Positions 44,682 through 60,741 of a stretch of 64,000 nt of DNA are shown here, in pieces. The notes below the pieces were generated by a model. The model was given only the letters and a program-made list of their open reading frames with translations, did not search any database and had not been told where the DNA came from. Every line of letters begins with the position of its first letter. Within the stretch, counting starts at the first letter, position 1. The position numbers and the translations under genes are program-made. Source of the stretch: Oceaniglobus trochenteri (GTDB lineage: Bacteria; Pseudomonadota; Alphaproteobacteria; Rhodobacterales; Rhodobacteraceae); the NCBI RefSeq assembly GCF_020529025.1, contig NZ_JACNMM010000004.1, positions 1-64,000 on the forward strand, given 5' to 3'.

Positions 44682-45499
44682 TCCGCATCGGCCCTGTCGA
44701 TCTTGGCGGCGCCTTGCCCTTCGCGCTGATCGCGGGGCCCTGCCAGTTGGAAACCCGCGATCACGCGCTGTTCATGGCCGAAGGGATCGCGCGGGCCAAC
44801 GGGGGCCGGCCGTTCATCTTCAAGGCCAGTTTCGACAAGGCCAACCGTTCCTCCCTGGGCTCGACCCGTGGTGTCGGCATGGACGAAGGATTGCACATCC
44901 TGCAAGAGGTACGCGATGCCCATGGCTGCCCTGTCCTGTCGGATGTGCATGACGTGGAGCAGGCGCGCGTGGCGGGTGGTGTTCTGGACGTGGTGCAGAT
45001 TCCGGCCTTCCTGTGCCGCCAGACCGACCTTTTGCTGGCGGCAGGCGAATCCGGGGCGGCGGTGAACATCAAGAAGGGCCAGTTCCTCGCGCCCTGGGAC
45101 ATGGCGCATGTGGCCGAAAAGGTGGCTAGCACCGGCAACGAACGGATCATGCTGTGCGACCGCGGCACCAGCTTTGGCTATAACACCTTGGTCAGCGATT
45201 TTCGTGGCCTGCCGGTGATGGCGCGCACGGGCTATCCGGTGGTCTTCGATGCCACCCATTCGGTGCAGCAGCCCGGCGGGCAGGGCGCCACCAGCGGCGG
45301 CCAGCGCGAATTTGCACCGGTGCTGGCGCGGGCCGCCTGTGCCGTGGGCATATCGGCGCTGTTCATCGAAACCCACCAAGCGCCCGATACTGCCCCCAGC
45401 GACGGGCCGAACATGATTCCGCTTGCCGAGATGGCGGCGCTGCTGGCCGATCTGCGCCGCTATGACGCCCTGCGCAAATCGGACATGGATCAGGCGTAG
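44678..45499 (+). CDS. kdsA: 3-deoxy-8-phosphooctulonate synthase
   Basis: 273 residues. It condenses PEP with arabinose 5-phosphate to KDO 8-phosphate. LIAGPCQLETRDH carries Cys at the position that is Asn in E. coli, the mark of the metal-dependent class; the other metal ligands are in DATHSVQQPGGQ, ETHQAPDTAPSDGP. NIKKGQFLAPWDM and FKASFDKANRSS bind PEP. It is coupled to kdsB by a four-base overlap and overlaps the convergent phosphohexomutase gene by ten bases. Confidence 0.95.
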   Translation: MIRIGPVDLGGALPFALIAGPCQLETRDHALFMAEGIARANGGRPFIFKASFDKANRSSLGSTRGVGMDEGLHILQEVRDAHGCPVLSDVHDVEQARVAGGVLDVVQIPAFLCRQTDLLLAAGESGAAVNIKKGQFLAPWDMAHVAEKVASTGNERIMLCDRGTSFGYNTLVSDFRGLPVMARTGYPVVFDATHSVQQPGGQGATSGGQREFAPVLARAACAVGISALFIETHQAPDTAPSDGPNMIPLAEMAALLADLRRYDALRKSDMDQA

Positions 45500-46878
45500 C
45501 GGCGGTTCACCTCGTCCAAGGTGGTGCGCACGATCGCGCGGGCGCGGTCTTCGGTTGTCGCTTCGCCATAGCAGCGCAGTTCGGGCGCGTTGCCCGAGGG
45601 GCGCAGGTGCACCACTTCGCCCGAGGCAAAGGTGATGCGCAGCCCGTCCGTCTGGTTCAGGTGGGTTTCTTCTCCAAGGGCGGCGAAAAGCTCGGCCCTG
45701 AGAGCGCGGTTCTGGCGCAGCGACGCGATCAGCCGGGCCGAGGTTTCGCTGGGCAGTCCCACCAGCCGGTCGGCGGCGGTGCGGCGCGCGGGCAGGGCGG
45801 CCACCTGATCGGCCAGCGCACCGTTCCGGACAATCCCGGCAAGGGTGCAGAGGATCGGCAGGAAGGCATCGCGCGTCAGCAGCGGCGCAAGCGTGCCGCC
45901 CGGCCCCTCGACGGGAAAGCCGGTCAGGAAGCCGCCGTTCGCCTCGTACCCGACGACGCGGGCCTTCGCGCTGTCGCCCAGGGCGGTTTCGATCTCGGCG
46001 ATCACGAAGGGCGAACCGATGCGCGTGCGCAGGATCGCGTCAAAGCCCATGCTGTCGATCATCGTGTTCGACGACACCGGCGTCACGATAATGCGCGCGC
46101 CCAGAAATTGCGCCGTCAGTGCCCCGATCACATCGCCCGGAACGACCCGGCCCGTGGCATCGGTGATCAGCGGGCGGTCGGAATCGCCGTCCATCGAAAC
46201 GATGGCGTCCAGCTGGTGTTCCCCTGCCCAGCCGTGCAGGCGGGCGCGGGTGTCATCATCCACCGCCTCGGTATCGACGGGGATGAAGTGGTCGGACCGC
46301 CCAAGGGGCACCACCTTGGCCCCCAGTGCCTTCAGCACCTGGCCCAACAGATCGCGCCCCACGGCGGAATGTTCGTAAAGCCCCACGCGCAGCCCACCCA
46401 GCGCGTCGGCGGCGAAAAAACCGGTATAGCGTTCGGCATAGCGGGCGGCGACACCGGCGTCGGTCGGCGGATCGGTCAGGTCAAGCGGACCGTTCCAGTC
46501 GCGCAGGGCGGCGTTGATCGCGGCCTCGTCGCCCTTGGTGATCTCTCCGTTGCGACGATAGAACTTCAGCCCGTTGCGGTCGGCGGGAATGTGGCTGCCG
46601 GTGACCATGACGGCCGGCGCGCGGCGGTGTTGCGCCTCAAGCGCAAGGGCCGGTGTGGGCAGGGTGCCGCAATCCACCACCTCAAGCCCTGCCGCCCGCG
46701 CCCCGGCGGCCACGGCGCGCAGATGCGCCCGCGACGAGGGCCGCAGATCGGCGCCGACCAGCAGCACACCATCGTGACGGGCGCGGTTCAGAAAGGCGCG
46801 GGTATAGTTGGCGCAGAGTGTATCGGTCAGTTCGCTGACCAATCCGCGCAGGCCGCTGGTTCCGAATTTGGGTGCCAT
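45490..46878 (-). CDS. Alpha-D-phosphohexomutase (phosphomannomutase-like)
   Basis: 462 residues in four domains. The phosphoserine loop reads VMVTGSHIPADRNG (Ser within TGSHIP), the Mg site SMDGDSDRPLI, the sugar loop YEANGGFLTGF, and the C-terminal phosphate loop RPSGNAPELRCYGEA. It would interconvert mannose 6- and 1-phosphate or the glucose equivalents for nucleotide-sugar synthesis. It overlaps kdsA by 10 bases tail to tail. The start is at ATG 46878 because the family begins PKFGTSGLRG. Confidence 0.88.
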   Translation of the reverse strand: MAPKFGTSGLRGLVSELTDTLCANYTRAFLNRARHDGVLLVGADLRPSSRAHLRAVAAGARAAGLEVVDCGTLPTPALALEAQHRRAPAVMVTGSHIPADRNGLKFYRRNGEITKGDEAAINAALRDWNGPLDLTDPPTDAGVAARYAERYTGFFAADALGGLRVGLYEHSAVGRDLLGQVLKALGAKVVPLGRSDHFIPVDTEAVDDDTRARLHGWAGEHQLDAIVSMDGDSDRPLITDATGRVVPGDVIGALTAQFLGARIIVTPVSSNTMIDSMGFDAILRTRIGSPFVIAEIETALGDSAKARVVGYEANGGFLTGFPVEGPGGTLAPLLTRDAFLPILCTLAGIVRNGALADQVAALPARRTAADRLVGLPSETSARLIASLRQNRALRAELFAALGEETHLNQTDGLRITFASGEVVHLRPSGNAPELRCYGEATTEDRARAIVRTTLDEVNRRYA

Positions 46879-46942
46879 GAAATCCTGTTCCTGCGATGAT
46901 GTCCGGCTGTCATAGCATGGTGCGCGGGCAAGGTGCCATATC

Positions 46943-47815
46943 TCAGGCGGCGGGCGCGCGGCGCCGCCTTGCGCCATAGCTGACGCTGAGTGCCGCGCCG
47001 ACCACCAGCACCGCACCAAGGGCGAAGGCAGGCGTCGGCACCTCGTCGAAGACGAAATACCCCACGAGGCCGGAAAAGATCAGCGACAGATAGCCGAGAA
47101 CCGAAAGGAACCCCGCCTCGCCGTGAAACTGGGCGCGCAGGAAACAGGCCTGGGCGCATTGGGCGAAGACCCCGATCGACAGCAGCGGCACAAGGTGCTC
47201 AGGCGGGATCGGCACCCATGACAGGGCGGCGATGGGGCCGGTCACAAGGGCAAGGCCGGCGGTATAGAATGTCATCAAAACCAGCGTCGGCGCGGCCCGC
47301 AGGCGGCGTGTCGCGATCACGGCGGCCGACCCGGCGCAGATCGCCAGGAACAGCACCGGCAGCCCGTTGCCCGGCGGCAGGGCCGAGGGTTCGACCGCGA
47401 TGACGACCCCGATCAACGCAACACCCGCCGCCACCCACCGCGCCAGCCCGATGGTTTCGCGCAGCACCAGCGCCGCCAGAACCATCGTCACGACCGGACG
47501 GGTGAAATTCAGCGCGGTGAAGGTGGCGAAGGGCAGGCGGGCGATGGCAAAGAAGCTGGCCGTCAGCGTGACGATGGACAGGCCGACGCGCAGGGCGTGG
47601 ATCGACAGATCGCCCACCCCGACAAAGACGCGCCGCCCGCGCCAGACCCAGGGCGCGATCAGGATAAGCCCTATCACCGCCCGCAGGAACACCAGTTGCG
47701 CCGGCGGAAAGCCCAGGCCAAGCGCCTTGACGATGCTGAGCGCCCAGATGTTCAGCGCCATGTCGGCCAGCATCCAGGCGCCGCCACGCAGATTGTCGCG
47801 GGGCGGCAATGTCAT
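46943..47815 (-). CDS. EamA/DMT-family transporter
   Basis: 290 residues with ten hydrophobic helices in two EamA repeats (PPAQLVFLRAVIGLILIAPW; then RFATFT-like LPFATFTALNFTRPVVTMVL; second repeat from PVLFLAICAGSAAVIATRR). Such proteins export or import small metabolites. The start lies two bases after the stop of the PIG-L gene, so the two form a unit: it could export the product of that enzyme, but this is a guess. Confidence 0.85.
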   Translation of the reverse strand: MTLPPRDNLRGGAWMLADMALNIWALSIVKALGLGFPPAQLVFLRAVIGLILIAPWVWRGRRVFVGVGDLSIHALRVGLSIVTLTASFFAIARLPFATFTALNFTRPVVTMVLAALVLRETIGLARWVAAGVALIGVVIAVEPSALPPGNGLPVLFLAICAGSAAVIATRRLRAAPTLVLMTFYTAGLALVTGPIAALSWVPIPPEHLVPLLSIGVFAQCAQACFLRAQFHGEAGFLSVLGYLSLIFSGLVGYFVFDEVPTPAFALGAVLVVGAALSVSYGARRRRAPAA

Positions 47816-47817
47816 GG

Positions 47818-50184
47818 TCAGCCCCGTTTGGACAGGAGGTTGGCGAAAAGCGCGAAGGCGCCGGGGGTCAGCCGCTCCATCTGGTGATGCAGGATCAGCG
47901 AGGTGTGGATATGCCGCCCCTTGCCGATATCGGCTGTCAGAAGCGCGCCCTGCATCGGGTCTTCCTCGGGGTCGGCCATTTCCAGAAGCGGCTGATAGGC
48001 TTCGTCCCAGGACTTGGCGAAATAGAGGCCCCGTTCCTTGTGCCACCCGGCCCAGGTTTCGGCGTCGATGGTGTTGGGGGTGTTCAGCAGGGGGTGGTCA
48101 GGTTGCAGATGCGTGACCTCTGCCGTCTCGTCGGTGATCCGCCAGCGCAGCGAAGGCTGGCCAATCTCAAGGCGGCGGGGCGGGATCGTGTCGGGGTTCC
48201 AGCCGTCCCAGGGGCGATGGTAGAGCGTGATCAGCGTGCCGCCCCGTTCGATCCAGTCGTGCAGGCGCGGCATCAGTTCGGCCAGCCCCTCGCGGAAGCG
48301 CATGGCGAAGATCCCGATGACGATGGTGTCCAGCTTGTCGAGGTCGGCGTCGCTGACACGGGTGGGTTCGGGCCGCGCCACCCCCAGCCCCAGTTGTTGC
48401 AGCCAGTGGCCCACCCTGTCGTTGCCGCCACCGATATAGCCGACATGCACATCGGGCAGCGCCACGTCGACCACCCGCACCTGAAGGCGGGCGGGAACCG
48501 TGCGCGCCGTGGGGGCGATATGGGGGTGGCTGATGCTGCGGGCCGAAAAGGCGGGTTCGCCGTCCAGCGTCAGCGCGATGTCGTAAAGCCCCGGCGCCAC
48601 ATCGCCGGGCGCGGTCAGCAGGATGCCCGAGGCCGAGGGTTCGGCCGACCAGCCCTCGGGCAGGGTCAGCGCCGGTTCGGCCTTCGGGGGAAAGATCGCG
48701 TTGATGGCCACGGGGATGTCACGCCGCTTGCCCTGGCGGTTCAGAAGGGCGGCGTGGGGTTCAAGATCGGCGGCGCGGGCAGGCAGAACCACCGGCGGCA
48801 ACAGCAGCGGCAGGCGGGTTTCGCTGTCGATGCCCTCCACCGTGGTGGTGACGCGCAGGGAGGGCAGATCGGGCATGTCCGCCAGCCAGGTATCGCGGTA
48901 CCCGTCATGGGGCGCGGCATCGGCGGCCACGGTCAGCCGGTCGCCCTCCATCCGCCAGCCGTCGGGCAGCATCCACTCGACGCGCAGCCCGTCGGCTGTG
49001 CCGTCACAACGTTCGACGGTGGTGCGCAGGCTTTCGCCCGGCCGCACCATGGCCCGTTCGAGATAGCCCTCGACGGTGACACCGGCGGCGATGCGGATGG
49101 CGCGCGACAGTTGCTGTTCCTTGCGGGCCAGGCGGTGCTGCACCTCGGTCGCGGCGTGATCGGGGCAGGCGACGCGAGCGGCGCGCACATGCTCGAGCGC
49201 GCGCGACAGGCGGGCGGCCAGGTCGGGCGCCAGCAGGGCCGAAAGGCAGGCGTCGATCTCGTCCTGGGCGGCGGTCAGATGTTGCGCGATCTCGGGCGCG
49301 TGCGCAAAGCCGGCCAGCGCGGCCAGGCCATCGGGCAGGCCCGCGCCCACGTCATCGCCATCGGCGACGATCCTGCAATCGGCCAGGTGGAGGGGCCAGT
49401 CGCGTTCTTCGCCCGGGGCAACCCAGCGGCCCATGGCCTGGGTGGCGTGGAAGACGCGGGATTGCTGCCCGATCTGTTCAAAGCTGTGCCCGGTGACGGG
49501 ATCGCCCCCCTTGGCGGCGACGATGGTGGTGGCGGGGGGCGGGGGCAGGTCGTCGTCATAGGCCTGACCGGCGCCCGACCAGGCGGGCAGGAACAGTTTC
49601 TTCACCTGCCAGGGGGCAAGGTTGCTGCCGGTGAAGGCCGGATCGGCGGCCAGGTCCATGACCAGGTGCGCCGCTTCGGTCATGGCGCGGTGGTGGCCGT
49701 GCTGGCCGGGGATGTCGAGGAAGGTGGGGCAGATGATGTCGGGGCGTTCGCGGCGCAGGATATGGACGAAGCGCGCCAGCGTGCGTTCGCGGCCCCACTT
49801 GGCCAGGGTTTCGACCCCGCTCTTGGAAAAGCCGAAATCGGTGATCGGGTCATCGGCCGTTTCCCCCAGCCAGTAAAGCCGCAGCGACAGGGCCTCGGCC
49901 GCGCGCTCCATCTCGGCGGTGCGCAGGGCGCCCAGGTCGGCGCCGGTGCAGGTGCCGATATCGTTCTGCCCGCCTTCGCCCCGGGTGGAACAGGCATAGG
50001 ACAGGTCGAATCCCCGGTGGCGCAGGGCCGCCAGCATGGCCGATGTTTCGTCATCGGGATGGGCGCCGGTGTTCATGAAGCTGACGCAGGATTGCAGCGG
50101 CAACAGCGCCTGCCAAAGATCGACGATACGGGCCGTCTGACCATGGATGCGAAGGGCGTCGGGCAGTTGGGCGGTGAGGGGCAT
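47818..50184 (-). CDS. Large PIG-L family deacetylase with C-terminal glutamine-amidotransferase-like region
   Basis: 788 residues. The PIG-L zinc site is intact: TGAHPDDETSAML (HPDDE, 42-46) and PGQHGHHRAMTEA (HGHH, 163-166). Family members deacetylate GlcNAc-linked substrates, as in mycothiol, GPI and antibiotic synthesis. Residues ~350-560 are beta-rich and unknown (VRPGESLRTTV, LPEGWSAEPSASGILL). Residues ~580-788 look like a class I GATase fold without an obvious catalytic Cys (VHVGYIGGGNDRVGHWLQQL, IVIGIFAMRFREGLAEL, LYHRPWDGWN). No signal peptide. It sits between a ROK repressor gene and an EamA transporter. Confidence 0.8.
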   Translation of the reverse strand: MPLTAQLPDALRIHGQTARIVDLWQALLPLQSCVSFMNTGAHPDDETSAMLAALRHRGFDLSYACSTRGEGGQNDIGTCTGADLGALRTAEMERAAEALSLRLYWLGETADDPITDFGFSKSGVETLAKWGRERTLARFVHILRRERPDIICPTFLDIPGQHGHHRAMTEAAHLVMDLAADPAFTGSNLAPWQVKKLFLPAWSGAGQAYDDDLPPPPATTIVAAKGGDPVTGHSFEQIGQQSRVFHATQAMGRWVAPGEERDWPLHLADCRIVADGDDVGAGLPDGLAALAGFAHAPEIAQHLTAAQDEIDACLSALLAPDLAARLSRALEHVRAARVACPDHAATEVQHRLARKEQQLSRAIRIAAGVTVEGYLERAMVRPGESLRTTVERCDGTADGLRVEWMLPDGWRMEGDRLTVAADAAPHDGYRDTWLADMPDLPSLRVTTTVEGIDSETRLPLLLPPVVLPARAADLEPHAALLNRQGKRRDIPVAINAIFPPKAEPALTLPEGWSAEPSASGILLTAPGDVAPGLYDIALTLDGEPAFSARSISHPHIAPTARTVPARLQVRVVDVALPDVHVGYIGGGNDRVGHWLQQLGLGVARPEPTRVSDADLDKLDTIVIGIFAMRFREGLAELMPRLHDWIERGGTLITLYHRPWDGWNPDTIPPRRLEIGQPSLRWRITDETAEVTHLQPDHPLLNTPNTIDAETWAGWHKERGLYFAKSWDEAYQPLLEMADPEEDPMQGALLTADIGKGRHIHTSLILHHQMERLTPGAFALFANLLSKRG

Positions 50185-50201
50185 GGCAGGTTCTTCCGGC
50201 G

Positions 50202-51377
50202 TTAGACGGCAACGGCAAGTTGCGGTGTGAAGGTTCGGTTTACGATCAGCGAGGCCGCGCCTAGGGCGGCGGTCATCCGACCGGATGCGCCTCGCAACAG
50301 GCGCGGCGTCGTGCGGTCGGGGCGGTTGGCGACCGAGCGTTCGTCAAGCGGCATCGCGGCGATCAGGTGGTCGATCAGGGTATCGGGCAGCGCACCGCCC
50401 AGGATGACGGCCTGCGGATCGAAAAGATTCTCGACCAGCGAAACCGCATGGGCCAGGGGCAGGGCGGCCTGGTCCAGCCAGTCGATCAGCGCCGGGCAGC
50501 CCTGGTCGTAAAGCTGGGCCAGGCTGGCGCTGTCGGGGGCGTCGATGCCATGGCCGGCCAGATGGCGGGCGATCGACAGGCGGCTGACCGCCTGTTCCAG
50601 CACCACACCGCCGCTGGCGGTGGGCATGGTGACATGGCCGATCTCGCCCGCGTTGCCGAAGGCCCCGCGCACCAGCCGGCCCTCGGACACCAGGCCAAGG
50701 CCCAGGCCGGTGCCGAAATAAAGGAAGGCATAATGGCTCAGCTCGCGCGCGGCACCCGAGACATGCTCGGCCATGGCGGCGGCGTTGGCGTCATTTTCGA
50801 CATGGGCGGGCAGGCCGAAGGCCCGGGTAAACCAGGCCGACATGTCGATCTGCGCCCAGCCGGGCAGTTCCGTCGCCTCGTCCTTCAGGCTTGTCGTGCC
50901 GAAGGGCCCGGGCACTACCACCCCGGCGCCCAGGATGCGGTCGGCGGGCACGCCGGTCTGGCTCAGCGCCAGATCGCGCAGCGCCAGGACCTTGGCCGTC
51001 ACCGCGTCGGGCAGGGCCGAGGACAGGGTGCAGCGATGGCTGAACACGGTATTGCCCAAGAGGTCGAGCATCACGGCGAAGACGGCACCGGGGCGAATCT
51101 CGATCCCGAAGGCAAAGCCGCCCCGGGGGTTGACTGCATACTGGATCGCGGGCATCCCCCGGGCACCCTGCAACCGGCCCTGTTCCACCAGCAGCCCCTC
51201 GCGTTCAAGATCGGCGATGATGTTGGAAACGGCCTGTGTGCTCAGCCCCGAGGCGCGGGCGATCTCTGCCCGGCCCACCTGTCCGGCGCGGCGCACATGG
51301 CCCAGGACAAGCTGCCGGTTATGGCTGCGCGAACGCTCGGCATTGGCACCGACAATCTGATCGAGTCTGACAACCAT
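50202..51377 (-). CDS. ROK family transcriptional repressor (NagC/XylR type)
   Basis: 391 residues. A winged helix-turn-helix is at about 16-65 (VRRAGQVGRAEIARASGLST then VSNIIADLEREGLLVEQGR), followed by a ROK domain with sugar site ENDANAAAMAEHV and GTGLGLGLVSEGRLVRG. The Cys-rich zinc motif of most ROK proteins (C-x-C-G-x-x-G-C) is absent; the region reads MPTASGGVVLEQA. It is divergent from the ABC operon and ~125 bases from it, with an operator-like repeat between; it likely controls both sides in response to a sugar. Confidence 0.88.
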   Translation of the reverse strand: MVVRLDQIVGANAERSRSHNRQLVLGHVRRAGQVGRAEIARASGLSTQAVSNIIADLEREGLLVEQGRLQGARGMPAIQYAVNPRGGFAFGIEIRPGAVFAVMLDLLGNTVFSHRCTLSSALPDAVTAKVLALRDLALSQTGVPADRILGAGVVVPGPFGTTSLKDEATELPGWAQIDMSAWFTRAFGLPAHVENDANAAAMAEHVSGAARELSHYAFLYFGTGLGLGLVSEGRLVRGAFGNAGEIGHVTMPTASGGVVLEQAVSRLSIARHLAGHGIDAPDSASLAQLYDQGCPALIDWLDQAALPLAHAVSLVENLFDPQAVILGGALPDTLIDHLIAAMPLDERSVANRPDRTTPRLLRGASGRMTAALGAASLIVNRTFTPQLAVAV

Positions 51378-51385
51378 TCCGCGGC

Positions 51386-51427
51386 ATTAACTCAAACCGC
51401 TTGTTAATTCAACTGGATTGAGTTAAT
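51386..51427. promoter_or_regulatory. Operator array between the ROK repressor and the ABC operon
   Basis: ATTAACTCAA (51386-51395) and TTGAGTTAAT (51418-51427) are a perfect 10-bp inverted repeat; TTAATTCAA (51404-51412) is a third half-site pairing with TTGAGTTAA over a 5-base spacer. Three TTAAYTCAA half-sites in 42 bases just upstream of the ROK gene are a strong candidate for its binding site. Confidence 0.65.
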
Positions 51428-51500
51428 CACGGAACAGGCGGGCGCAGACCCCCAATCTCATACCAAGGGCACCCATGGGTGTCGAACCGGGAGAACAGAC

Positions 51501-52763
51501 ATGACATTTGGAGCAATCCGGGGGCTGGCCCTTGCCAGCGTGACAGGGATCGCGGGCCTTCTGGGCAGCGCGGCCCATGCCGTGGAAATCGAATACTGGC
51601 AGTATTTCTACGACGCCCGCGTCGAGGCGATGAACCAGCTGATCGAGAAGTTCCAGGCCGCCAACCCCGACATCACCGTCAAGATGTCGCATTTCCCCTA
51701 TGCCGATTACCGCACCAAGGTGGCCTCGGCCATTCCCGCGGGCGAGGGGCCGGACGTGGTGCAGCTGTTCTACGGCTGGTTGAACGACTACAAAGAGGCG
51801 CAGCTGATCCAGCCGCTGCCCGCCGACACCTTCCCGGCCGACAAGATCGATTCCGAGTTCTTCCCGATGGTCAGCGCCATGCGCGATGGCGATCAGTATT
51901 GGGCGCTGCCCACGGCGGTCCGCTCGCTTGCCCTGTTCTACAATGAACGCCTGTTCGACGAGGCCGGCATCGAAAGCCCGCCCGAAACCCTGGACGAGCT
52001 GATCGAGGTCGCCCGCAAGCTGACCAAGAAGGACGGCGCCGGGAACCTGACCCAGGTGGGCATCACGGCCGGCATGACGGCGCAGGATCACCACTGGTGG
52101 CGCGAGGGCCTCGTGCGGCAGTTCGGCGGCGACCCCTACAAGGACGACTACCAGACGGTGAACTATGACACCGAGGCAGGCCTTGCCGCGCTGAACTATT
52201 ACACCAGCCTGTTCATGGGTGACGACGCCGTGACGGCCACCACCTTCATGGACGAGCCCCAGGCCGCCTTCAAGGCCGGTCGCGCGGGCATGCACATCGA
52301 CGGGTCGTTCCGCATCGGTTCGCTTGCCGATATCCGCGGGCTGAAGTGGGGTGTCACCGAACTGCCCGCAGGGCCGGACGGCACGCGTTCGAACTACTCC
52401 TCGTACTGGGTGAACGCGATCACCACCAAGGCCGAAGGCGAGAAATACGACGCCGCCGTCAAGTTCATGGAATACCTCACCTCGGACGAGGCGATGCAGC
52501 TGTGGCTTGAGGTCGTGGGCGAACTGCCCGCCAAGCCCTCGGTGGGCATGACCGACAAGAACGCCAACGATCCGGTCTTCGGCCCCTTCATCCGCGGCCT
52601 GGAATACGCCCACACCACCAAGTTCGCCGACGAAAGCGGTCAGCGCCAGGTGCTGGTCGAAATGGTCGAGCGCATGCAGCTGCAGGGTGTGTCGGCCGAG
52701 GAAAGCCTGGCCACCGCGGCCAAGGCCGAACAGAAGCTGCTTGACGATTACTACGGCAAGTAA
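51501..52763 (+). CDS. Sugar ABC transporter periplasmic binding protein (family 1)
   Basis: 420 residues. Signal peptide TFGAIRGLALASVTGIAGLL ends HAVEIEYWQYFYDARVEAM. Typical cluster B motifs: LIEKFQAANPDITVKMSHF, EGPDVVQLFYGWLNDYKEAQ, FKAGRAGMHIDGSFRIG and SDEAMQLWLEVVGELPAKP. The many Trp, Tyr and Phe residues fit a sugar or glycoside. It is the first gene of an operon with two permeases, a lyase-like enzyme, an ATPase and a kinase, and is controlled by the divergent ROK protein. Confidence 0.9.
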   Translation: MTFGAIRGLALASVTGIAGLLGSAAHAVEIEYWQYFYDARVEAMNQLIEKFQAANPDITVKMSHFPYADYRTKVASAIPAGEGPDVVQLFYGWLNDYKEAQLIQPLPADTFPADKIDSEFFPMVSAMRDGDQYWALPTAVRSLALFYNERLFDEAGIESPPETLDELIEVARKLTKKDGAGNLTQVGITAGMTAQDHHWWREGLVRQFGGDPYKDDYQTVNYDTEAGLAALNYYTSLFMGDDAVTATTFMDEPQAAFKAGRAGMHIDGSFRIGSLADIRGLKWGVTELPAGPDGTRSNYSSYWVNAITTKAEGEKYDAAVKFMEYLTSDEAMQLWLEVVGELPAKPSVGMTDKNANDPVFGPFIRGLEYAHTTKFADESGQRQVLVEMVERMQLQGVSAEESLATAAKAEQKLLDDYYGK

Positions 52764-52792
52764 GACGCAAGGGGGTGGTCTGACCACCCTGC

Positions 52793-52825
52793 GCCCACCC
52801 TGTCACGGGGTGGGCGATCCTTTTT
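52793..52825 (+). terminator. Attenuator-like hairpin between binding-protein and permease genes
   Basis: GCCCACCC (52793-52800) pairs with GGGTGGGC (52808-52815), followed by GATCC and TTTTT (52821-52825); a smaller stem GGGTGGT/ACCACCC (52773-52779, 52783-52789) precedes it. This is a partial terminator in the same place as the hairpin of the other sugar operon at 24273-24303. Confidence 0.65.
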
Positions 52826-52841
52826 GGCGGATGGGGCAACC

Positions 52842-53729
52842 ATGTATCGCAACCTGACCATCAAGCAGAAACAGATCGTCTGGGCCTGGGCCTTTCTGGC
52901 GATCCCGGTCGTGTTCTACAGCGTGATCCGCTTCTATCCCACGGGCAACGCGATCCTCATCTCGTTCCAGAACTGGAACCTTCTGGGCGACCGCACCTGG
53001 GCCGGGCTGGACAATTACATCAAGCTGTTCAACGATCCGGTCTTCTGGAAGGTCTTTGCCAATACCTTCATCTACCTGTTGCTGGGCACGCCCATCAGCC
53101 TCGTGATCTCCTTCGTCATCGCCTATCACCTGGATCAGCTGCGCTTCATGCACGGCTTCTTGCGGATGCTCTATTTCCTGCCCTTCATGACCAGCGCCGT
53201 CGCCATGGCCTGGGTCTGGCGGTGGTTCTATCAACCGGTGCCGACCGGGCTGTTCAACAACATGCTGGCCAACCTCGGGATCGGGCAGATCGAATTCCTG
53301 AACTCCACCACCAATGCGCTGCCGGCCGTCTTGGCGCCGGCGGTCTGGGCGGGGCTGGGGTTCCAGATCATCATCTTCATGGCCGGCCTGCGCGCCATCC
53401 CCAAATCCTATTACGAAGCGGCCCGCATCGACGGCGTGGGCTGGTGGACGATCCTCTGGGAAATCACCCTGCCGCTGCTGAAACCCACCATCGTCTTCAT
53501 CGTGGTCTTCTCGTCCATCGGGTTCCTGCGGATCTTCGATCACGTCTTCAACATGACCACCAACAACCCCGGCGGCCCGCTGAACGCGACGAAACCGCTG
53601 GTGCTGATGATCTATGAATCCGCCTTCACCAAGTTCGACATGGGCTATGCCGCCGCGCAGACGGTCGTCCTGTTCCTGGTGCTGCTGGTGGTGTCGCTGC
53701 TGCAACTGCGCATCCTGAGGGACAAGTAA
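52842..53729 (+). CDS. Sugar ABC transporter permease (MalF/UgpA type)
   Basis: 295 residues with six hydrophobic helices. EAA loop YYEAARIDGVGWWTILWEIT is intact. The start is at ATG 52842 (MYRNLTIKQKQ); six residues upstream in frame are possible. Normal length, in contrast to the enlarged permease of the other operon. It overlaps the next permease gene by one base (TAATG). Confidence 0.92.
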   Translation: MYRNLTIKQKQIVWAWAFLAIPVVFYSVIRFYPTGNAILISFQNWNLLGDRTWAGLDNYIKLFNDPVFWKVFANTFIYLLLGTPISLVISFVIAYHLDQLRFMHGFLRMLYFLPFMTSAVAMAWVWRWFYQPVPTGLFNNMLANLGIGQIEFLNSTTNALPAVLAPAVWAGLGFQIIIFMAGLRAIPKSYYEAARIDGVGWWTILWEITLPLLKPTIVFIVVFSSIGFLRIFDHVFNMTTNNPGGPLNATKPLVLMIYESAFTKFDMGYAAAQTVVLFLVLLVVSLLQLRILRDK

Positions 53730-54607
53730 TGGCCGTCGTCGAGGAAATCCGCCCCACCTCCGAAGCGCTGCTGGGCACCAAGCCGCCCAGGAAGCCCGCG
53801 AACATGGGTCAGATCATCCGCTGGCTGCTGCTGTTCATCGGCGGGATCGTGATGGTCATGCCCATCGCCTACATGATCTCGACCTCGCTGAAATGGCCGC
53901 ACGAGGTATACAACGTCAACCTGATCCCCGAAGAGCCGACGATCGAGAACTACACCTATGTTCTCGAGGACGGCCGCTTCTACGCCTGGTTCCTGAACTC
54001 CATCGTCATCGCCACGGTGACCACGATTTGCAACATCCTGTTCGACAGTCTCGTGGGCTATACCCTGTGCAAGTTCCGCTTTCCCGGGCGCTACATCATC
54101 TTCATCGCCATCCTGTCGACCCTGATGATCCCCACCGAAATGCTGGTGATCCCCTGGTACCTGATGAGCCAGCAGTTCGGCTGGCTGGATACCTACTGGG
54201 GCATCATGTTCCCCGGCCTGATGACGGCCTTCGGCACCTTCCTGATGAAGCAGTTCTTCGAAACCGTCCCCGACGATTTCATCGAGGCGGCCCGCATCGA
54301 CGGTTTGAACGAACTTCAGATCTGGTGGACCGTGGCCATGCCCCTGGTGAAACCGGCGCTGGCGGCCCTGGCGATCTTCGTCTTCCTCGGGAACTGGACG
54401 GCCTTCATCTGGCCGCTGATCGTCACCAACTCGGTCGAGATGTACACGCTGCCCGTGGGCCTGTCGTCCTTCGGGGATGAGGCCGATGTCGCATGGGAAC
54501 TGATCATGACCGGCGCCGCGATCTCGACCATCCCGACGCTGGTGGTCTTCCTGATCTTCCAGAGGTTCATCATCCGTGGCGTCGTGATGGCGGGGCTGAA
54601 AGGATGA
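53729..54607 (+). CDS. Sugar ABC transporter permease (MalG/UgpE type)
   Basis: 292 residues, six hydrophobic helices. The EAA loop is FIEAARIDGLNELQIWWTVA. N-terminal cytoplasmic stretch (AVVEEIRPTSEALLGTKPPR) before the first helix. The stop is followed by 90 bases containing an inverted copy of the dispersed repeat and then the lyase-like gene. Confidence 0.92.
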   Translation: MAVVEEIRPTSEALLGTKPPRKPANMGQIIRWLLLFIGGIVMVMPIAYMISTSLKWPHEVYNVNLIPEEPTIENYTYVLEDGRFYAWFLNSIVIATVTTICNILFDSLVGYTLCKFRFPGRYIIFIAILSTLMIPTEMLVIPWYLMSQQFGWLDTYWGIMFPGLMTAFGTFLMKQFFETVPDDFIEAARIDGLNELQIWWTVAMPLVKPALAALAIFVFLGNWTAFIWPLIVTNSVEMYTLPVGLSSFGDEADVAWELIMTGAAISTIPTLVVFLIFQRFIIRGVVMAGLKG

Positions 54608-54630
54608 ACGGCGAAAGGAAAACCCCGTGG

Positions 54631-54666
54631 TTTCTTTCTTGCAAAAATACTCCCGCCGGAGGCGTC
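54631..54666 (-). repeat. Dispersed intergenic repeat, subtype A, inside the ABC operon
   Basis: TTTCTTTCTTGCAAAAATAC then TCCCGCCGGAGGCGTC, the reverse complement of the 31044 copy. It sits in the only gap of the operon between the permease and lyase-like genes and could reduce expression of the downstream half. Confidence 0.7.
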
Positions 54667-54697
54667 CGCGCCTTCGGGTCACGCAGGCCCCGATAAC

Positions 54698-56185
54698 ATG
54701 AACGACACGTCTAAATTCCCCGATCCTACCTACCGCGACACGGTGCTTGCCCCGCTGTTCGAAGGGGTGAAAACCCACTATGCGGCGCATATGGGGGCGA
54801 TCAACCGCGCGCACCTGGTGATGCTGCACGACACCGGCATCCTGAAGCGCGACGATGCCCGCGCCATCGCCCGCGCCCTGCGCGACATCGAGGCCGAAAC
54901 CGACATCGCCGCGCTCACCTATACAGGCGAGCATGAGGATTACTTCTTCCTGGTGGAATCCGAACTCAAGCGCCGCCTGGGCGATCTGGGCGGGGCGCTG
55001 CACACGGCCCGCTCGCGCAACGACATGGATCACACCCTGTTCAAGCTGGCCCTGCTGGACCGGGGCAGCGCGATGCAGCACCGGCTGGGCGCGCTGATCG
55101 ATGCGCTGATCCAGACGGCAAAGCGGGAAAGCGAAACACTGATCGTGGCCTATACCCATGGTCAGCCGGCCCAGCCGACAACCTTCGGCCATTACCTTTC
55201 GGCCATCGTCGAGGTTCTGCTGCGCGATGCAAGGCGCCTGGCCGATGCGCTGGACACCGTCGACAAATCCCCCATGGGCGCGGCTGCGATCACCACCAGC
55301 GGCTTTCCCATCGACCGCGCCCGCATGGCCGACCTGCTGGGGTTCGGCGCCGTTTCGCTGAACTCCTACGGCTGCATCGCCTCGGTCGATTACATCACCG
55401 GGCTCTATTCTGCGATCAAGCTGGTGTTTTTGCACCTCGGCCGCCTGATCCAGGACATGGCCTTCTGGAGCGCATTCGAGGTCGGGCAGCTCTATGTGCC
55501 CAACAGCCTCGTGCAGATTTCCAGCATCATGCCGCAAAAGCGCAACCCGGTGCCCATCGAACACCTGCGCCACCTGTCCAGCGTGACGGTGGGGCGGTGC
55601 GACATGATCGTGAACACGATGCACAACACTCCCTTCACCGACATGAACGACAGCGAGGGCGAGGTGCAGCAGGCCGGCTATGCCGCCTTCGATTCGGGGG
55701 GGCGGGTCCTCGATCTGCTGACCGCCTTCATCCCCGCCTGTTCGATCAACGCCGACAGGGTGCGTGCCAATACCGATGCCGCCTGCATCACCATCACCGA
55801 ACTGGCTGATACCCTGGTGCGCGACGAAGGGCTCAGCTTTCGCCAGGCGCATGAGGTCGCGGCGGCAACGGCCCGGGCCGTGATTGCCGAGGGCCAGCCC
55901 CTCAGCGAAGGCCACGCCGCCTTCACGCGCGCCTTCGAAAGCGAAGAGGGACGCGCCCCGCGGACCGATGAGCGGGCCTTCCGCACCGCCGTGGCCCCCG
56001 AAACCTTCGTGGCGCGGCGCGACCGTCCGGGCGGCCCCGCACCCGCGGCCCTGACCCATGCCTTTGCCAGCTATTCCAGCGTGCTGCAGGACGATCTGCT
56101 GCCCCGCGCATCGGTGCGCGACAACCGGCGCAGCACTGCCGCCGCCACCCTTGAAACCGCATTTGCCGACCTTCTGGAGGATTGA
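54698..56185 (+). CDS. Argininosuccinate lyase-like enzyme in a sugar-transport operon
   Basis: 495 residues, slightly longer than ArgH (~460). The fumarase/ASL fold motifs are all present: TARSRNDMDHT, YTHGQPAQPTTFGH (His), and the signature SSIMPQKRNPVPIEH with the catalytic Ser loop. It should perform a C-N or C-O beta-elimination giving fumarate or another unsaturated product. Its position between sugar permeases and ATPase argues against a role in arginine synthesis; the substrate may be an amino-sugar or N-linked glycoconjugate derivative (inference). GGCCCCGATAAC precedes the ATG and no strong RBS is seen. Confidence 0.8.
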   Translation: MNDTSKFPDPTYRDTVLAPLFEGVKTHYAAHMGAINRAHLVMLHDTGILKRDDARAIARALRDIEAETDIAALTYTGEHEDYFFLVESELKRRLGDLGGALHTARSRNDMDHTLFKLALLDRGSAMQHRLGALIDALIQTAKRESETLIVAYTHGQPAQPTTFGHYLSAIVEVLLRDARRLADALDTVDKSPMGAAAITTSGFPIDRARMADLLGFGAVSLNSYGCIASVDYITGLYSAIKLVFLHLGRLIQDMAFWSAFEVGQLYVPNSLVQISSIMPQKRNPVPIEHLRHLSSVTVGRCDMIVNTMHNTPFTDMNDSEGEVQQAGYAAFDSGGRVLDLLTAFIPACSINADRVRANTDAACITITELADTLVRDEGLSFRQAHEVAAATARAVIAEGQPLSEGHAAFTRAFESEEGRAPRTDERAFRTAVAPETFVARRDRPGGPAPAALTHAFASYSSVLQDDLLPRASVRDNRRSTAAATLETAFADLLED

Positions 56186-56188
56186 TCC

Positions 56189-57241
56189 TTGGCCACCCTT
56201 GCCCTGCGCGATCTGGTGAAAACCTACGACAAGACCGAGGTGTTGCACGGCATCAACCTTGATGTGGCGGATGGCGAATTCGTCGTCTTCGTCGGCCCCT
56301 CGGGCTGTGGCAAATCCACCACCCTGCGGATGATCGCCGGGCTGGAAGAGGTGACAGGCGGCAGCATCGAGATCGGCGGGCGGCAGGTGAACAACCTCGA
56401 ACCCAAGGATCGCGACATCGCCATGGTGTTCCAGAACTATGCGATCTACCCGCACATGTCGGTGCGCAAGAACATCGGTTTCGGGCTGCGCACCGCGAAG
56501 ATGAGCAAGCCCGACAAAGAGGCCCGCATCGACGAGGTGGCAGCCATCCTCGACATGACCGACCTTCTGGATCGCAAGCCCAACCAGCTTTCGGGCGGTC
56601 AGCGTCAACGGGTCGCCATTGGCCGCGCCATGGTGCGCGACCCGGCGGTGTTTCTTTTCGATGAACCGCTCTCGAACCTCGATGCGCAGCTGCGCACCCA
56701 GATGCGTCTGGAGATCAAGAAGCTGCACCAGCGGGTGGGCAATACCATCGTCTTCGTCACCCACGACCAGGTCGAGGCGATGACCATGGCCGACCGGATC
56801 GTCATCATGAAGGACGGCCACATCCAGCAGGTCGGCACCCCGGCCGAGGTTTACCACAGCCCGGCCAATACCTTCGTGGCCAGATTCATCGGTGCGCCAT
56901 CGATGAACATGCTGCCAGCCACCGCCAGCGGCGGTGTGCTGCGGCTTGATACCGGCAGCACCGTCGATCTGCCGGCCCGCGCCGACGGGCCGGTGACGCT
57001 GGGCGTGCGCCCCGACGACCTGGGCCTTGGCGAAGGCGTCGCGCTGGTCCGGGGCAAGGTCACCGTGCGCGAACCGCTGGGCCCTGAAACCCTGATCTAT
57101 GTCGACACCGGCGCAGGGGGCGAGGTGATTGCCAAGGCCGATGGCCGCACCCCCCCCGAGGTGGGCGCCGAGGTGACGCTGAACGCCAAGCCCGAAAACC
57201 TGCACTTCTTCGACGCCAACACCGGACAGGCCCTGACGTGA
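56189..57241 (+). CDS. Sugar ABC transporter ATPase (UgpC type), TTG start
   Basis: 350 residues. Walker A GPSGCGKST, Q-loop VFQNYAIYPHMSVRKN, signature QLSGGQRQRVAIGRAMV, Walker B VFLFDEPLSNLDA, H-loop FVTHDQVEAMTMADR; C-terminal TOBE-like region with GVRPDDLGLG. The start is TTG 56189: GGAGG lies at 56176-56180, eight bases upstream, and the encoded MATLALRDLVKTYDKTEVLH is the normal family N-terminus. It overlaps the kinase gene by four bases (GTGA). Confidence 0.93.
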   Translation: MATLALRDLVKTYDKTEVLHGINLDVADGEFVVFVGPSGCGKSTTLRMIAGLEEVTGGSIEIGGRQVNNLEPKDRDIAMVFQNYAIYPHMSVRKNIGFGLRTAKMSKPDKEARIDEVAAILDMTDLLDRKPNQLSGGQRQRVAIGRAMVRDPAVFLFDEPLSNLDAQLRTQMRLEIKKLHQRVGNTIVFVTHDQVEAMTMADRIVIMKDGHIQQVGTPAEVYHSPANTFVARFIGAPSMNMLPATASGGVLRLDTGSTVDLPARADGPVTLGVRPDDLGLGEGVALVRGKVTVREPLGPETLIYVDTGAGGEVIAKADGRTPPEVGAEVTLNAKPENLHFFDANTGQALT

Positions 57242-58113
57242 GCGACCCGTCCCGCCCTCCGGGGGTGCTGTGCGTCGGGCGCCTCTATTGCGACCTGGTG
57301 TTTTCCGATCTGCCGCGCATGCCCACCCTGGGGCACGAGGTTTACGCCGGGGCGCTGGCCCTGCGGGCCGGGGGCGGTGCGGTGATCACCGCCGCGCATC
57401 TTGCACAACTGGGCCGCCCCGCCCACCTGGCCGCCTTCTGGCCCGGCCCGCCGTTTCAGGACCAGGTGATGGGCGATGTCGCCGCGGTGGGAGTCGGGCA
57501 CGATCTGTGCCTGCCCGCAGCACCCGGCGATCCGCAGATCACCGTTGCGATGTCGGGCGCGCAGGATCGCGCCTTCCTGACCCGCAGGGTGGGGCGCGCG
57601 GTGCCCGATCTGGCGACCGCCGATCTTGAAAGGCTGAAGGTCGGTCACCTTCACATCGGAGAACTGGCCACCCTGGCCGAGGCGCCCGGGCTGATCGACA
57701 TTGCCCGCGCCGCCGGGTTGAGCATTTCGCTCGATTGCAGCTGGGACGACGACACCAGCGCCGATCACCTGGCCCTGATTGCCCGGGTCGACGTGTTCTT
57801 CCCGAACGAGGAAGAGGTGGCGCAACTGGCCCGTCTCGGCGTCAATCCACCCTATGCGCCCCTGACCGTGACCAAGCGTGGCGCGCGCGGCGCCCTGGGC
57901 GAAAGCGAAAGCGAAACGGCGGAAGCGCCCGGCCTTTCGGTGCCGGTGGTCGATACCACTGGGGCGGGCGATGCCTTCAACAGCGGTTTCCTTGATGGAT
58001 GGCTTGCGGGGGCGCCCCTTGCGGCCTGCCTTGCGGCCGGCAACGCGCGGGGCGCCGTCGCGGTGCAGCAGCGCGGCGGATTCACCACGGAAGGTGCCGC
58101 CGCAACCACCTGA
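57238..58113 (+). CDS. PfkB (ribokinase) family sugar kinase
   Basis: 291 residues, GTG start overlapping the ATPase stop. N-terminal PPGVLCVGRLYCDLVFSDLP, Gly-rich RAGGGAVITAAHLAQLGRPA, and the second PfkB signature VVDTTGAGDAFNSGFLDGWL with the catalytic Asp. It probably phosphorylates the sugar or sugar acid delivered by the transporter. The C-terminus abuts the convergent alcohol dehydrogenase gene with no gap between stops. Confidence 0.88.
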   Translation: MSDPSRPPGVLCVGRLYCDLVFSDLPRMPTLGHEVYAGALALRAGGGAVITAAHLAQLGRPAHLAAFWPGPPFQDQVMGDVAAVGVGHDLCLPAAPGDPQITVAMSGAQDRAFLTRRVGRAVPDLATADLERLKVGHLHIGELATLAEAPGLIDIARAAGLSISLDCSWDDDTSADHLALIARVDVFFPNEEEVAQLARLGVNPPYAPLTVTKRGARGALGESESETAEAPGLSVPVVDTTGAGDAFNSGFLDGWLAGAPLAACLAAGNARGAVAVQQRGGFTTEGAAATT

Positions 58114-59259
58114 TCAGAAACAGCTTTCCAGCAGGGGGCGGGTGTTTTCCGCCGTCATCTGAACCGGGTTCCCCCCGCAGGAGGGATCGGCCAGCGCCGA
58201 GGCCGTGATGCGGTCCATGTCCGGATCGCGTACCCCCAGTTCGGTCAGGTTCGCCGGGATGCCAAGATCGGCATTCAGCTGGCCGACGAAATCATAGAAC
58301 CCGTCAAAACCGCCCGAAACCCCGAGGTAGGCAGCGGCGCGCGCCAACCTGTCCTCAACCGCCGGGCGGTTGAAGCGCAGCACCGGCAGCATCACCACGG
58401 CATTGGTCGTGCCGTGGTGGGTGTGGTGCATCGCGCCGATCGGATGGCTGATGGCATGGATGGCGCCCAGCCCCTTCTGAAAGGCCGTGGCCCCCATCAT
58501 CGCCGCCGACATCATCTCGGCCCGTGCCGTCAGGTTGGTCGGCGCGTCATAGGCGGTGCGCAGGTTCTCGGCCACCAGGCGCAGCCCCTCCAGCGCGATG
58601 CCCTGTGACATCGGGTGGTAGTGGGGCGAACAATAGGCCTCAAGGCAGTGGGCGAAGGCGTCCATGCCGGTGCCTGCCGTGATGGAGCGCGGCATGCCCA
58701 CGGTCAGTTCAGGGTCGCAGATCACCACCGAAGGCAGGATCCGGGGGTGGAAGATGATCTTCTTTTCCGCCGTTTCGCTGTTGGTGATCACGCTGGCGCG
58801 GCCCACTTCGCTACCCGTGCCGGCCGTTGTGGGAACGGCGACGATGGGGTGGATGGCGGCCGCATCGGCCCGCGTCCACCAGTCGCCGATGTCCTCGAAA
58901 TCCCACAGCGGGCGGGTCTGCCCGGCCATGAAGGCCAGGACCTTGCCCAGGTCCAGCCCCGAACCGCCACCAAAGGCCACCACGCCGTCATGGCCGCCGT
59001 CGCGATAGACCTGAAGGCCGGCGGCGACGTTGCGCTCGTTCGGGTTCGGATCGACCTCGGCGAAAAGCGCGGCGCCCAGTCCGCCCTCGTTCAGCAGGTC
59101 AAGGGTGCGGGTCGTGATCTCCATGCCCGCAAGGCCACGGTCGGTCACGAGAAGCGGGCGGCTGATGCCCGCGGCGCGGCAGGCCTCGGCAATCTCGGCG
59201 ATGCGCCCGGCGCCGAACCGGATTGCGGTGGGGTAAGACCAGTTTGCGGTCATGCTCAT
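58114..59259 (-). CDS. Iron-containing (group III) alcohol dehydrogenase
   Basis: 381 residues. NAD site FGGGSGLDLGKVLAFMAGQ, VPTTAGTGSEVGRASVITN; metal ligands in GTGMDAFAHCLEAYCS (Asp, His) and HAISHPIGAMHHTHHGTTNA (His, His). Oxidises a primary alcohol or reduces an aldehyde. Starts ATG 59259 (another at 59253) three bases after the aldehyde dehydrogenase stop, so the pair is co-translated; alcohol to aldehyde to acid is the likely route. Confidence 0.92.
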   Translation of the reverse strand: MSMTANWSYPTAIRFGAGRIAEIAEACRAAGISRPLLVTDRGLAGMEITTRTLDLLNEGGLGAALFAEVDPNPNERNVAAGLQVYRDGGHDGVVAFGGGSGLDLGKVLAFMAGQTRPLWDFEDIGDWWTRADAAAIHPIVAVPTTAGTGSEVGRASVITNSETAEKKIIFHPRILPSVVICDPELTVGMPRSITAGTGMDAFAHCLEAYCSPHYHPMSQGIALEGLRLVAENLRTAYDAPTNLTARAEMMSAAMMGATAFQKGLGAIHAISHPIGAMHHTHHGTTNAVVMLPVLRFNRPAVEDRLARAAAYLGVSGGFDGFYDFVGQLNADLGIPANLTELGVRDPDMDRITASALADPSCGGNPVQMTAENTRPLLESCF

Positions 59260-59262
59260 GTC

Positions 59263-60642: not shown

Positions 60643-60665
60643 CTCAGCCTCATTTCCGGGGCTTG

Positions 60666-60695
60666 CCCCATCTTTGGTCCAAAATATCCTCGGGG
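60666..60695 (-). repeat. Dispersed intergenic repeat, subtype B
   Basis: CCCCATCTTTGGTCC then AAAATATCCTCGGGG; followed by a perfect stem GTCGCC/GGCGAC (60699-60704, 60708-60713). In minus-strand direction it lies downstream of the ligase gene and upstream of the aldehyde dehydrogenase. Confidence 0.65.
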
Positions 60696-60741
60696 GGAGT
60701 CGCCGCAGGCGACGGGGGGCAGACAGCCCCCCTCCTGCGGG

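Follow-up and report, generated by a model that had tools for sequence, protein, structure and literature searches.

Why would a gene resembling argininosuccinate lyase lie within a sugar-uptake operon, and on what would its product act? The question is raised by a locus in a 64,000-nucleotide stretch of the Oceaniglobus trochenteri genome (the window), where the initial annotation had placed eight genes around a shared operator. All eight are there, at the positions and on the strands given, according to the open reading frame list and the profile search (Table 1); the locus proves genuine, its genes are under common control and it is conserved. The ROK protein scores under every NCBIfam equivalog cut-off listed in that search, and the nearest solved structures to the solute-binding protein are GacH and maltodextrin binders. 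A relative of the EamA/DMT transporter is found in 53 of the 77 loci with enough left flank, which makes it a frequent associate. The Fe-ADH, aldehyde dehydrogenase and glutamine synthetase-like genes at 58114-62100 were rejected as part of the pathway since relatives occur in only 5, 5 and 3 of 92 loci, counts that take in duplicates and weak dehydrogenase relatives.

Table 1. Features of the locus with their coordinates in the window
Feature	Coordinates	Strand	Evidence
EamA/DMT transporter adjoining deacetylase	46943..47815	-	ORF; start counted on translation; family from annotated relatives
PIG-L (LmbE) deacetylase, large, 788 aa	47818..50184	-	Pfam PF02585 2.6e-18
ROK-family repressor, winged helix, NagC/Mlc-like	50202..51377	-	PF00480 2.5e-33 + MarR_2-type HTH
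Palindromic operator, single, between divergent units	51387..51426	.	genome scan + shuffles + orthologous gaps
Periplasmic sugar-binding protein, CUT1 type	51501..52763	+	PF01547 1.6e-40
ABC permease 1	52824..53729	+	PF00528 4.9e-13
ABC permease 2	53729..54607	+	PF00528 1.2e-19
ArgH-superfamily lyase, proposed fumarate-releasing glucosaminyl-conjugate lyase	54698..56185	+	PF00206 1.1e-39
ABC transporter ATPase, MalK/UgpC type	56189..57241	+	NF008653 491.1 bits (cut-off 432)
PfkB-family sugar kinase, proposed glucosamine kinase	57238..58113	+	PF00294 4.9e-29

The operator, a palindrome of 40 bp with the sequence TTAACTCAA-N5-TTG-N5-TCAA-N5-TTGAGTTAA, is the sole site in the genome at three mismatches or fewer (both strands match, being palindromic), and 100 shuffled versions of the window hold no match. 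Against a consensus drawn by eye from 25 of the orthologous gaps, 72 of 77 gaps score 19 or more out of 26 and the remaining five 14-17; the 733 control segments from these loci reach 16 at most, kinship between loci being uncorrected. The shared operator claimed at the outset is real, unique and common to both divergent units; the co-regulation claimed with it stands, and nothing was found that speaks against it. With one site genome-wide, there is no wider regulon of this operator, to which the ROK protein presumably binds.

As the initial annotation had advised, the locus was sought in other genomes. There are 92 syntenic loci, or 88 non-redundant ones (mostly from Rhodobacteraceae) once four duplicates are set aside, and apart from some losses they share the gene order PIG-L–ROK / SBP–permease–permease–lyase–ATPase–PfkB. 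Of the 81 loci whose left flank is long enough, 80 carry PIG-L, and the downstream PfkB gene was not found in 18 of the 88, at least two of which (L064 and L109) stop at contig edges. Plasmids of Aminobacter and Rhizobium (Rhizobiales) and of Thalassospira also carry the full set, while loci of Bosea and Shinella hold importer and lyase without annotated PIG-L or kinase. Much the same set, in rearranged order, is borne by Deinococcus plasmids: ROK, lyase, large PIG-L, binding protein, permeases, small PIG-L and kinase in D. wulumuqiensis and D. actinosclerus, the same in D. ficus (where the large PIG-L homologue is listed as "NEW3"), and a D. deserti locus without large PIG-L. The window binding protein shares 43-46% identity with seven Deinococcus counterparts, against 26-29% for the kinase (three counterparts) and about 27% for the ROK protein (two), a difference that fits a shared ligand across phyla. 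Among 398 genomes sampled across the phylum, six possess the lyase (E <= 1e-70), the window genome included. An argininosuccinate lyase-type enzyme in a sugar operon, regarded at first as very unusual, is instead a conserved design found in two phyla.

The lyase scores over the TIGR00838 (ArgH) cut-off (297.8 vs 279.5 bits) and carries an argH label in many plasmid records. The initial annotation had considered that it might be a functional ArgH with no canonical argH elsewhere; such a gene, with the ArgH loop, lies elsewhere in the window genome (G000:C32:50360), and the 13 genomes with the lyase, among the 61 searched, each hold a second, ArgH-like match (32-35% identity). In the phylogeny the lyases cluster with those of Deinococcus, separate from ArgH (support 1.0), and other ASL-like genes at about 30% identity (Cereibacter, Haladaptatus, Thioclava, Haloarcula, Geminicoccaceae, Agrobacterium) stand in different contexts outside this clade. 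Motifs were counted in 98 main-group and seven Deinococcus lyases (105 in total) against seven ArgH and six other ASL-like proteins. One ArgH set used here did not include L024, whose ArgH lies where its contig stops. The residues of the fumarate half (SRND, TH-Q, SSxMPQKxNP) are present in the lyase family: the SSxMPQKxNP catalytic loop, like the fold common to ArgH, in 98/98 and 7/7, SRND in 97/98 (the remaining sequence is incomplete) and 7/7, with T153 replaced by Ser in one of the seven Deinococcus proteins. The arginine-side loop PLAYxKDxQED, found in all seven canonical ArgH, is absent from all 98 main-group and all seven Deinococcus lyases, which carry instead QKRNPVxxEH (98/98 and 7/7) and NxPFxDxND (96/98 and 7/7), both missing from the seven ArgH and the six other ASL-like proteins. 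A longer form of the second motif, starting with His (HNxPFxDxND), was abandoned because it matches only 77 of the 98, and the signature residues D315, H289 and N310 taken singly each occur in two of the six other ASL-like proteins. Judged by these residues, the ArgH site survives in the lyase only in its fumarate-binding half, the arginine side being replaced by the signature; a canonical ArgH is rejected on the active-site residues and on the separate argH.

The structure model of the lyase is closest to the EDDS lyase of Chelativorans sp. BNC1 (6g3d; Z 38.1, rmsd 2.8, 463 aligned residues, 26% identity), likewise a fumarate-linked lyase, and reaches Z 35.8 with delta-crystallin/ASL. We know of no sugar genes associated with EDDS lyase, and the leaving-group side differs: the Asp shared by ArgH and EDDS lyase (D290) corresponds to V285 and the ArgH Tyr to D315, both in 105/105, while in the differing loop around EDDS Y320 this residue aligns with M316, adjoining D315, offset by one residue through a gap. 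The elimination anticipated in the initial annotation, across a C-N or C-O bond, is supported in outline, and with the leaving-group residues replaced, an ether to malate (C-O) would be no less likely than a linkage to aspartate (C-N).

The large PIG-L protein (model pLDDT 90.3) comprises a PIG-L domain at about 32-286, a beta-rich middle and, as its description as a deacetylase with a GATase-like tail had foreseen, a GATase1/ThuA-like domain at about 577-788 (2gk3, Z 17.3; 3rht, Z 16.2; ThuA-like 1t0b, Z 15.7). The nearest fold to the PIG-L domain is MshB (Z 21.7), and B. subtilis BshB, level with diacetylchitobiose deacetylases at Z 19.0, and GalB (5cgz, Z 18.7) are also close; as GalB is a hydratase, deacetylation is not certain. 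H42, D44, D45, R88, H162 and H165 are invariant in 45/45 large PIG-L proteins, and the HxDD + H metal motif described for the LmbE/PIG-L superfamily (PMC4101496) is present with the conserved Arg and His. By motif position, BshB Arg109, which contacts GlcNAc-Mal in the description given there (PMC4101496), corresponds to Q161, before H162 (Gln in 42 of the 45 and Thr in the other three), so that malate recognition would differ from that of BshB. The protein falls under the BshB cut-offs (TIGR04000/TIGR04001; BshB2 21.9 of 195.25 bits, BshB1 without a match at E 0.001) and far under the equivalog cut-offs for MshB (24.7 of 224 bits) and Mca (29.6 of 277 bits). For the small Deinococcus PIG-L the best-scoring family is MshB, at 145-161 bits and under the 224 cut-off. 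Mycothiol contains inositol and would need no fumarate lyase.

Further indications come from neighbouring genes. A co-directional NagB-II-like gene lies 3' of PfkB in 11 of the 88 loci, and three plasmid loci (L125, L138 and L139) also adjoin a glucosamine-6-phosphate (GlcN-6-P) deaminase gene: two NagB genes exceed the TIGR00502 cut-off of 236.9 bits, one beside PIG-L in Loktanella (250.9) and one that follows a ROK protein in Paroceanicella (242.1), and NagB-II adjoins a ROK kinase in Roseomonas. The NagB-II matches are under the curated family cut-off (173.7 and 313.4 of 430). On the lyase tree the linkage takes 10 parsimony changes for 13 positives, or 7 for 10 when only the 65 loci whose right flank is complete are counted, and so arose or was lost several times. 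No nagB adjoins the window locus; the over-cut-off nagB of that genome lies on another contig (C30). Two other candidates in the window genome were discarded: a PF01182 match on the lyase contig (C27:383561), which is 6-phosphogluconolactonase between zwf and pgi, and the best NagB-II match (124.1 of 430 bits, in a long frame), probably GlmS. The deaminase genes after the kinase and beside the plasmid loci make it very probable that GlcN-6-P is the product.

The adjacent deaminases, taken with the substrate range of PIG-L/LmbE proteins as described in PMC4101496, point to a glucosamine core, and on sequence grounds we are confident that the substrate would be a glucosamine conjugate from which fumarate is released. 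We propose that the ROK-repressed operon takes up and catabolises an N-acetylglucosaminyl-succinyl conjugate: the CUT1 ABC importer would carry it into the cell, the large PIG-L would strip the N-acyl group to give glucosaminyl-malate (GlcN-Mal), the ArgH-like lyase would take the proton beside the distal carboxylate and beta-eliminate fumarate to leave glucosamine, the PfkB kinase would convert glucosamine to GlcN-6-P, and NagB or NagB-II would yield fructose-6-P and ammonia. We infer the order of deacetylation and lysis, the kinase specificity and the identity of the substrate. The earlier outline of import, deacetylation, elimination, phosphorylation and co-regulation is supported, and its broad "N-acylated amino-sugar conjugate" or glycosyl-amino acid can be narrowed in this way. 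The most likely conjugate would be N-acetyl-alpha-D-glucosaminyl-L-malate (GlcNAc-Mal) or relatives from bacillithiol turnover, an assignment that we favour modestly. GlcNAc-Mal, the bacillithiol backbone, fits every proposed step, and GlcNAc-Mal and GlcN-Mal are bacillithiol precursors. Bacillithiol-type thiols are described from Polaribacter and Deinococcus-Thermus (PMC6282198). Deinococcus lineages make bacillithiol themselves, so that their synthesis would face competition from a GlcN-Mal lyase unless the lyase were repressed. Polaribacter is marine. BshC was found in none of the 61 genomes searched, the window genome included, which argues for salvage and not biosynthesis.

It is conceivable, if unlikely, that the substrate instead carries succinate on the nitrogen of glucosamine, as an aspartyl sugar (for example a Heyns or Amadori-type conjugate), and is cleaved by an EDDS-like C-N lyase, with PIG-L trimming an extra acyl group. 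EDDS lyase, the closest solved fold, joins amines to fumarate to form N-substituted aspartates (PMC12363623), and the Roseomonas, Bosea and Shinella loci are without annotated PIG-L; however, the replacement of D290 and of the ArgH Tyr in all 105 lyases weighs against such chemistry, and the near-constant PIG-L in testable loci suggests an N-acylated core. Less probable again is another GlcNAc glycoside or ether with a 1,2-dicarboxyethyl (malyl) group, derived for example from polysaccharide or lipid, which would be degraded by the same enzymology and be unrelated to bacillithiol. The oligosaccharide ligands of the binding protein's nearest solved relatives are in keeping with it, as is the lack of anything bacillithiol-specific beside the loci (no bsh genes among the annotated neighbours of the annotated plasmid loci), but no glycosidase is among the recurring gene clusters, as far as these were identified, and such a linkage is known to us from no other common natural compound. 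Were the enzyme a redundant additional argininosuccinate lyase that had ended up among sugar genes, the TIGR00838 score and the argH labels would be explained, yet this is highly improbable given the further ArgH-like match in 13/13 lyase-bearing genomes, the arginine-side loop missing in 105/105 and a gene that accompanies the transporter in two phyla.

With glucosaminyl-malate as the preferred substrate, the locus would share GlcNAc-Mal, GlcN-Mal, the LmbE/PIG-L fold and the metal motif with bacillithiol biosynthesis (BshA, BshB, BshC) and bacillithiol-conjugate amidase, but would run in the catabolic direction and adds importer, fumarate-releasing lyase, kinase and deaminase. GlcNAc catabolism (NagK/NagA/NagB) has in common with it the ROK regulator, the GlcN-6-P node and the final NagB or NagB-II, whereas here the proposed PIG-L deacetylation precedes phosphorylation (NagA acts after it), a lyase step is added and the kinase is of the PfkB family.

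We found no description of this locus among the open-access journal papers that our literature searches listed. It seems an even call whether it represents an undescribed catabolism of the bacillithiol backbone, in which an aspartase/fumarase-superfamily enzyme that bears the argH label in public records would cleave the sugar-malate ether and allow marine and soil bacteria that make no bacillithiol to scavenge it, one operon design being conserved in two phyla. The recurrent argH annotation would be wrong, recognisably so by QKRNPVxxEH and NxPFxDxND, with consequences for arginine-pathway models. The ArgH-like branch of the fumarase superfamily is known for C-N cleavage, and if GlcN-malate is the substrate, the superfamily would gain a sugar-ether C-O substrate. 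This would also be, as far as the literature searched goes, the first described breakdown route of the bacillithiol backbone, and thiol turnover between bacillithiol producers (e.g., Bacteroidetes) and Rhodobacteraceae would become directly testable.

Our phylogeny of 44 sequences (24 main-group lyases, seven from Deinococcus, seven canonical ArgH and six other ASL-like proteins; midpoint rooted) splits the main-group and Deinococcus lyases from ArgH and the other ASL-like proteins with a local support of 1.0. The main group has 98 members, one from the window and the others from 88 loci and nine plasmid records, all alphaproteobacterial save a few Granulosicoccaceae. The residues serving the fumarate half are unaltered in the lyase. 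On the leaving-group side, V285, H289, N310 and D315 are fixed in the whole main group and in all seven Deinococcus proteins, as are F313 and N317 but for one main-group sequence each (97/98); ArgH (7/7) has D, L, G, Y, L and K, respectively, where the lyase has V285, H289, N310, D315, F313 and N317. The motifs QKRNPVxxEH (98/98) and NxPFxDxND (96/98) recur in the seven Deinococcus lyases and are absent from the seven ArgH and six other ASL-like proteins, although D315, H289 and N310 are individually present in two of these six. The separate clade, the replaced leaving-group residues and this signature make it very unlikely that the lyase is an ArgH. Its model (pLDDT 86.0) has EDDS lyase (Z 38.1) as best structural match, followed by argininosuccinate lyase/delta-crystallin (Z 35.8). 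EDDS lyase differs in having D290, the Asp common to ArgH, at the place of V285, and its Y320 falls beside D315, an alignment gap shifting it by one residue; in EDDS lyase D290 and Y320 each lie 4-6 angstroms from the substrate (PMC12363623). We infer that the lyase releases fumarate from a leaving group other than arginine, a sugar hydroxyl being considered the likeliest.

All eight genes described in the initial annotation are present, with coordinates and reading unchanged, and the shared operator that it claimed is a single palindrome within the 123 bases separating the two divergent units. At up to three mismatches the operator pattern of the window occurs at a single place in the 4.59 Mb genome, matched on both strands since it is palindromic, and nowhere in 100 shuffles of the window. 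A consensus, drawn by eye from 25 of 77 extractable orthologous gaps, specifies 26 bases; at least 19 of these are found in 72 of the 77 gaps and 14-17 in the remaining five, the maximum among control segments from the same loci (n=733) being 16. Such uniqueness and recurrence give good sequence support to the prediction, also made earlier, that the deacetylase/regulator and importer/lyase/kinase units are controlled together, and the ROK protein presumably binds the operator.

Features in the window and in related loci
Feature	Position	Strand
Large PIG-L deacetylase	window 47818-50184	-
Palindromic operator	window 51387-51426	
Lyase	window 54698-56185	+
KdsA-like synthase and phosphohexomutase-like gene just past the EamA gene (translations, by eye only)	window 44666-47019	
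Separate cluster of Fe-ADH, aldehyde dehydrogenase and glutamine synthetase-like gene	window 58114-62100	-
HpcH/HpaI-like aldolase gene after the ATPase gene, at the usual PfkB place (Granulosicoccaceae)	L113:10887-11687	
Importer-lyase unit, then weakly NtrR-like protein and nadA, L-aspartate oxidase and nadC genes (Terrarubrum)	L127:14736-19119	

Searching genome contigs for the lyase returned at least 80 loci; carriers number 13 of the 61 genomes searched and six of 398 drawn across the phylum, the window genome counted in both. Gene order is almost invariant across the 92 loci examined for synteny (88 non-redundant): PIG-L is present in 80/81 loci and an EamA-related gene in 53/77 with sufficient left flank, and PfkB lies downstream in 70/88, contig ends not being allowed for. 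Titles of the listed loci name Rhodobacteraceae, Roseibium/Labrenzia, Cohaesibacter, Ahrensia, Rhizobiaceae and Granulosicoccaceae. The complete set also occurs in plasmid records of Aminobacter, Rhizobium and Thalassospira, and a Roseomonas plasmid record holds a ROK regulator, importer, lyase, ROK kinase and NagB-II.

The separate reverse-strand cluster of the window, whose Fe-ADH has 4-hydroxybutyrate dehydrogenase as nearest model, seldom adjoins the locus in other genomes. Eight loci that yielded no PfkB (L062, L077, L078, L083, L089, L099, L103 and L108; several titled Marivita) all carry, about 25 bases past the ATPase gene, a gene resembling glutathione-dependent disulfide-bond oxidoreductases (in L062, 199.6 of 332 bits for NF010579). 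Its presence would be consistent with uptake of an oxidised thiol but, as genes of this kind are common, may be fortuitous.

Seven Deinococcus plasmids carry the lyase at 33-36% identity to that of the window. D. wulumuqiensis and D. actinosclerus share the order ROK, lyase, large PIG-L, binding protein, two permeases, small PIG-L and kinase, as does D. ficus, where the large PIG-L homologue is listed as a NEW3 protein; the D. deserti cluster is without large PIG-L, only lyase and importer genes are annotated together in D. aetherius, D. psychrotolerans and Deinococcus sp. KNUC1210, and no ABC ATPase gene is annotated inside the seven clusters. Compared with the window, kinases (26-29% identity, three compared) and ROK proteins (about 27%, two compared) have drifted between phyla, whereas binding proteins stayed similar (43-46%, seven compared). 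That much the same functions recur, in another order, in another phylum argues strongly that the lyase, the deacetylase, the sugar importer and the kinase act in concert. By eye, the large PIG-L of two Deinococcus loci (L150, L145) bears an apparent N-terminal signal peptide, which the large PIG-L of the window lacks, and may thus act outside the cytoplasm there.

In 11 of 88 loci PfkB has a NagB-II-like gene, a putative GlcN-6-P deaminase, downstream of it on the same strand, the match beginning no more than about 170 bases from where the kinase ends in nine and about 530 bases from it in L054 and L069; that of L087 is interrupted by the contig end. NagB-II lies nearby on the opposite strand in L042, L044 and L098, and NagB near PIG-L in L037; a NagB of another family, above its curated cut-off, adjoins PIG-L in L138 (Loktanella, close to L037) and follows a ROK protein in L139 (Paroceanicella). 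On the lyase tree the linkage label (13 positives) takes 10 changes against a shuffled mean of 12.3 (minimum 8), and seven against 9.5 (minimum 7) for the 65 loci with complete right flank, so that the linkage was gained or lost several times. In the window genome no nagB adjoins the locus, and one above cut-off lies on contig C30, the window being positions 1-64000 of contig C27.

The need for deacylation, fumarate elimination, a GlcN kinase and a GlcN-6-P deaminase points to GlcNAc joined to a 1,2-dicarboxyethyl group, which would undergo these steps in that order, beginning with N-deacylation of the GlcNAc core. One known compound of this kind is GlcNAc-L-malate: in bacillithiol synthesis BshA forms it, BshB deacetylates it to GlcN-malate and BshC adds cysteine. 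Polaribacter is a marine genus. According to PMC6282198, bacillithiol-type thiols are made by Polaribacter and by Deinococcus-Thermus, among others. PMC4101496 reviews LmbE enzymes, which have N-acyl-glucosamine cores as substrates there; the PIG-L/LmbE fold also takes in GalB, a hydratase. Against the proposal, the substrate-contacting arginine of BshB is not conserved in the large PIG-L, NagB-II scores fall under that family's cut-off, importer-lyase plasmid records of Bosea and Shinella have no annotated PIG-L or kinase, no bsh gene was seen among annotated neighbours, and Deinococcus, a bacillithiol-producing lineage, would have to hold the lyase off. A glucosamine conjugate, cleaved with fumarate release, is highly probable, and GlcN-malate itself has a little better than an even chance of being the substrate. 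As BshC is missing from all 61 genomes searched, window genome included, the locus would serve salvage rather than synthesis.
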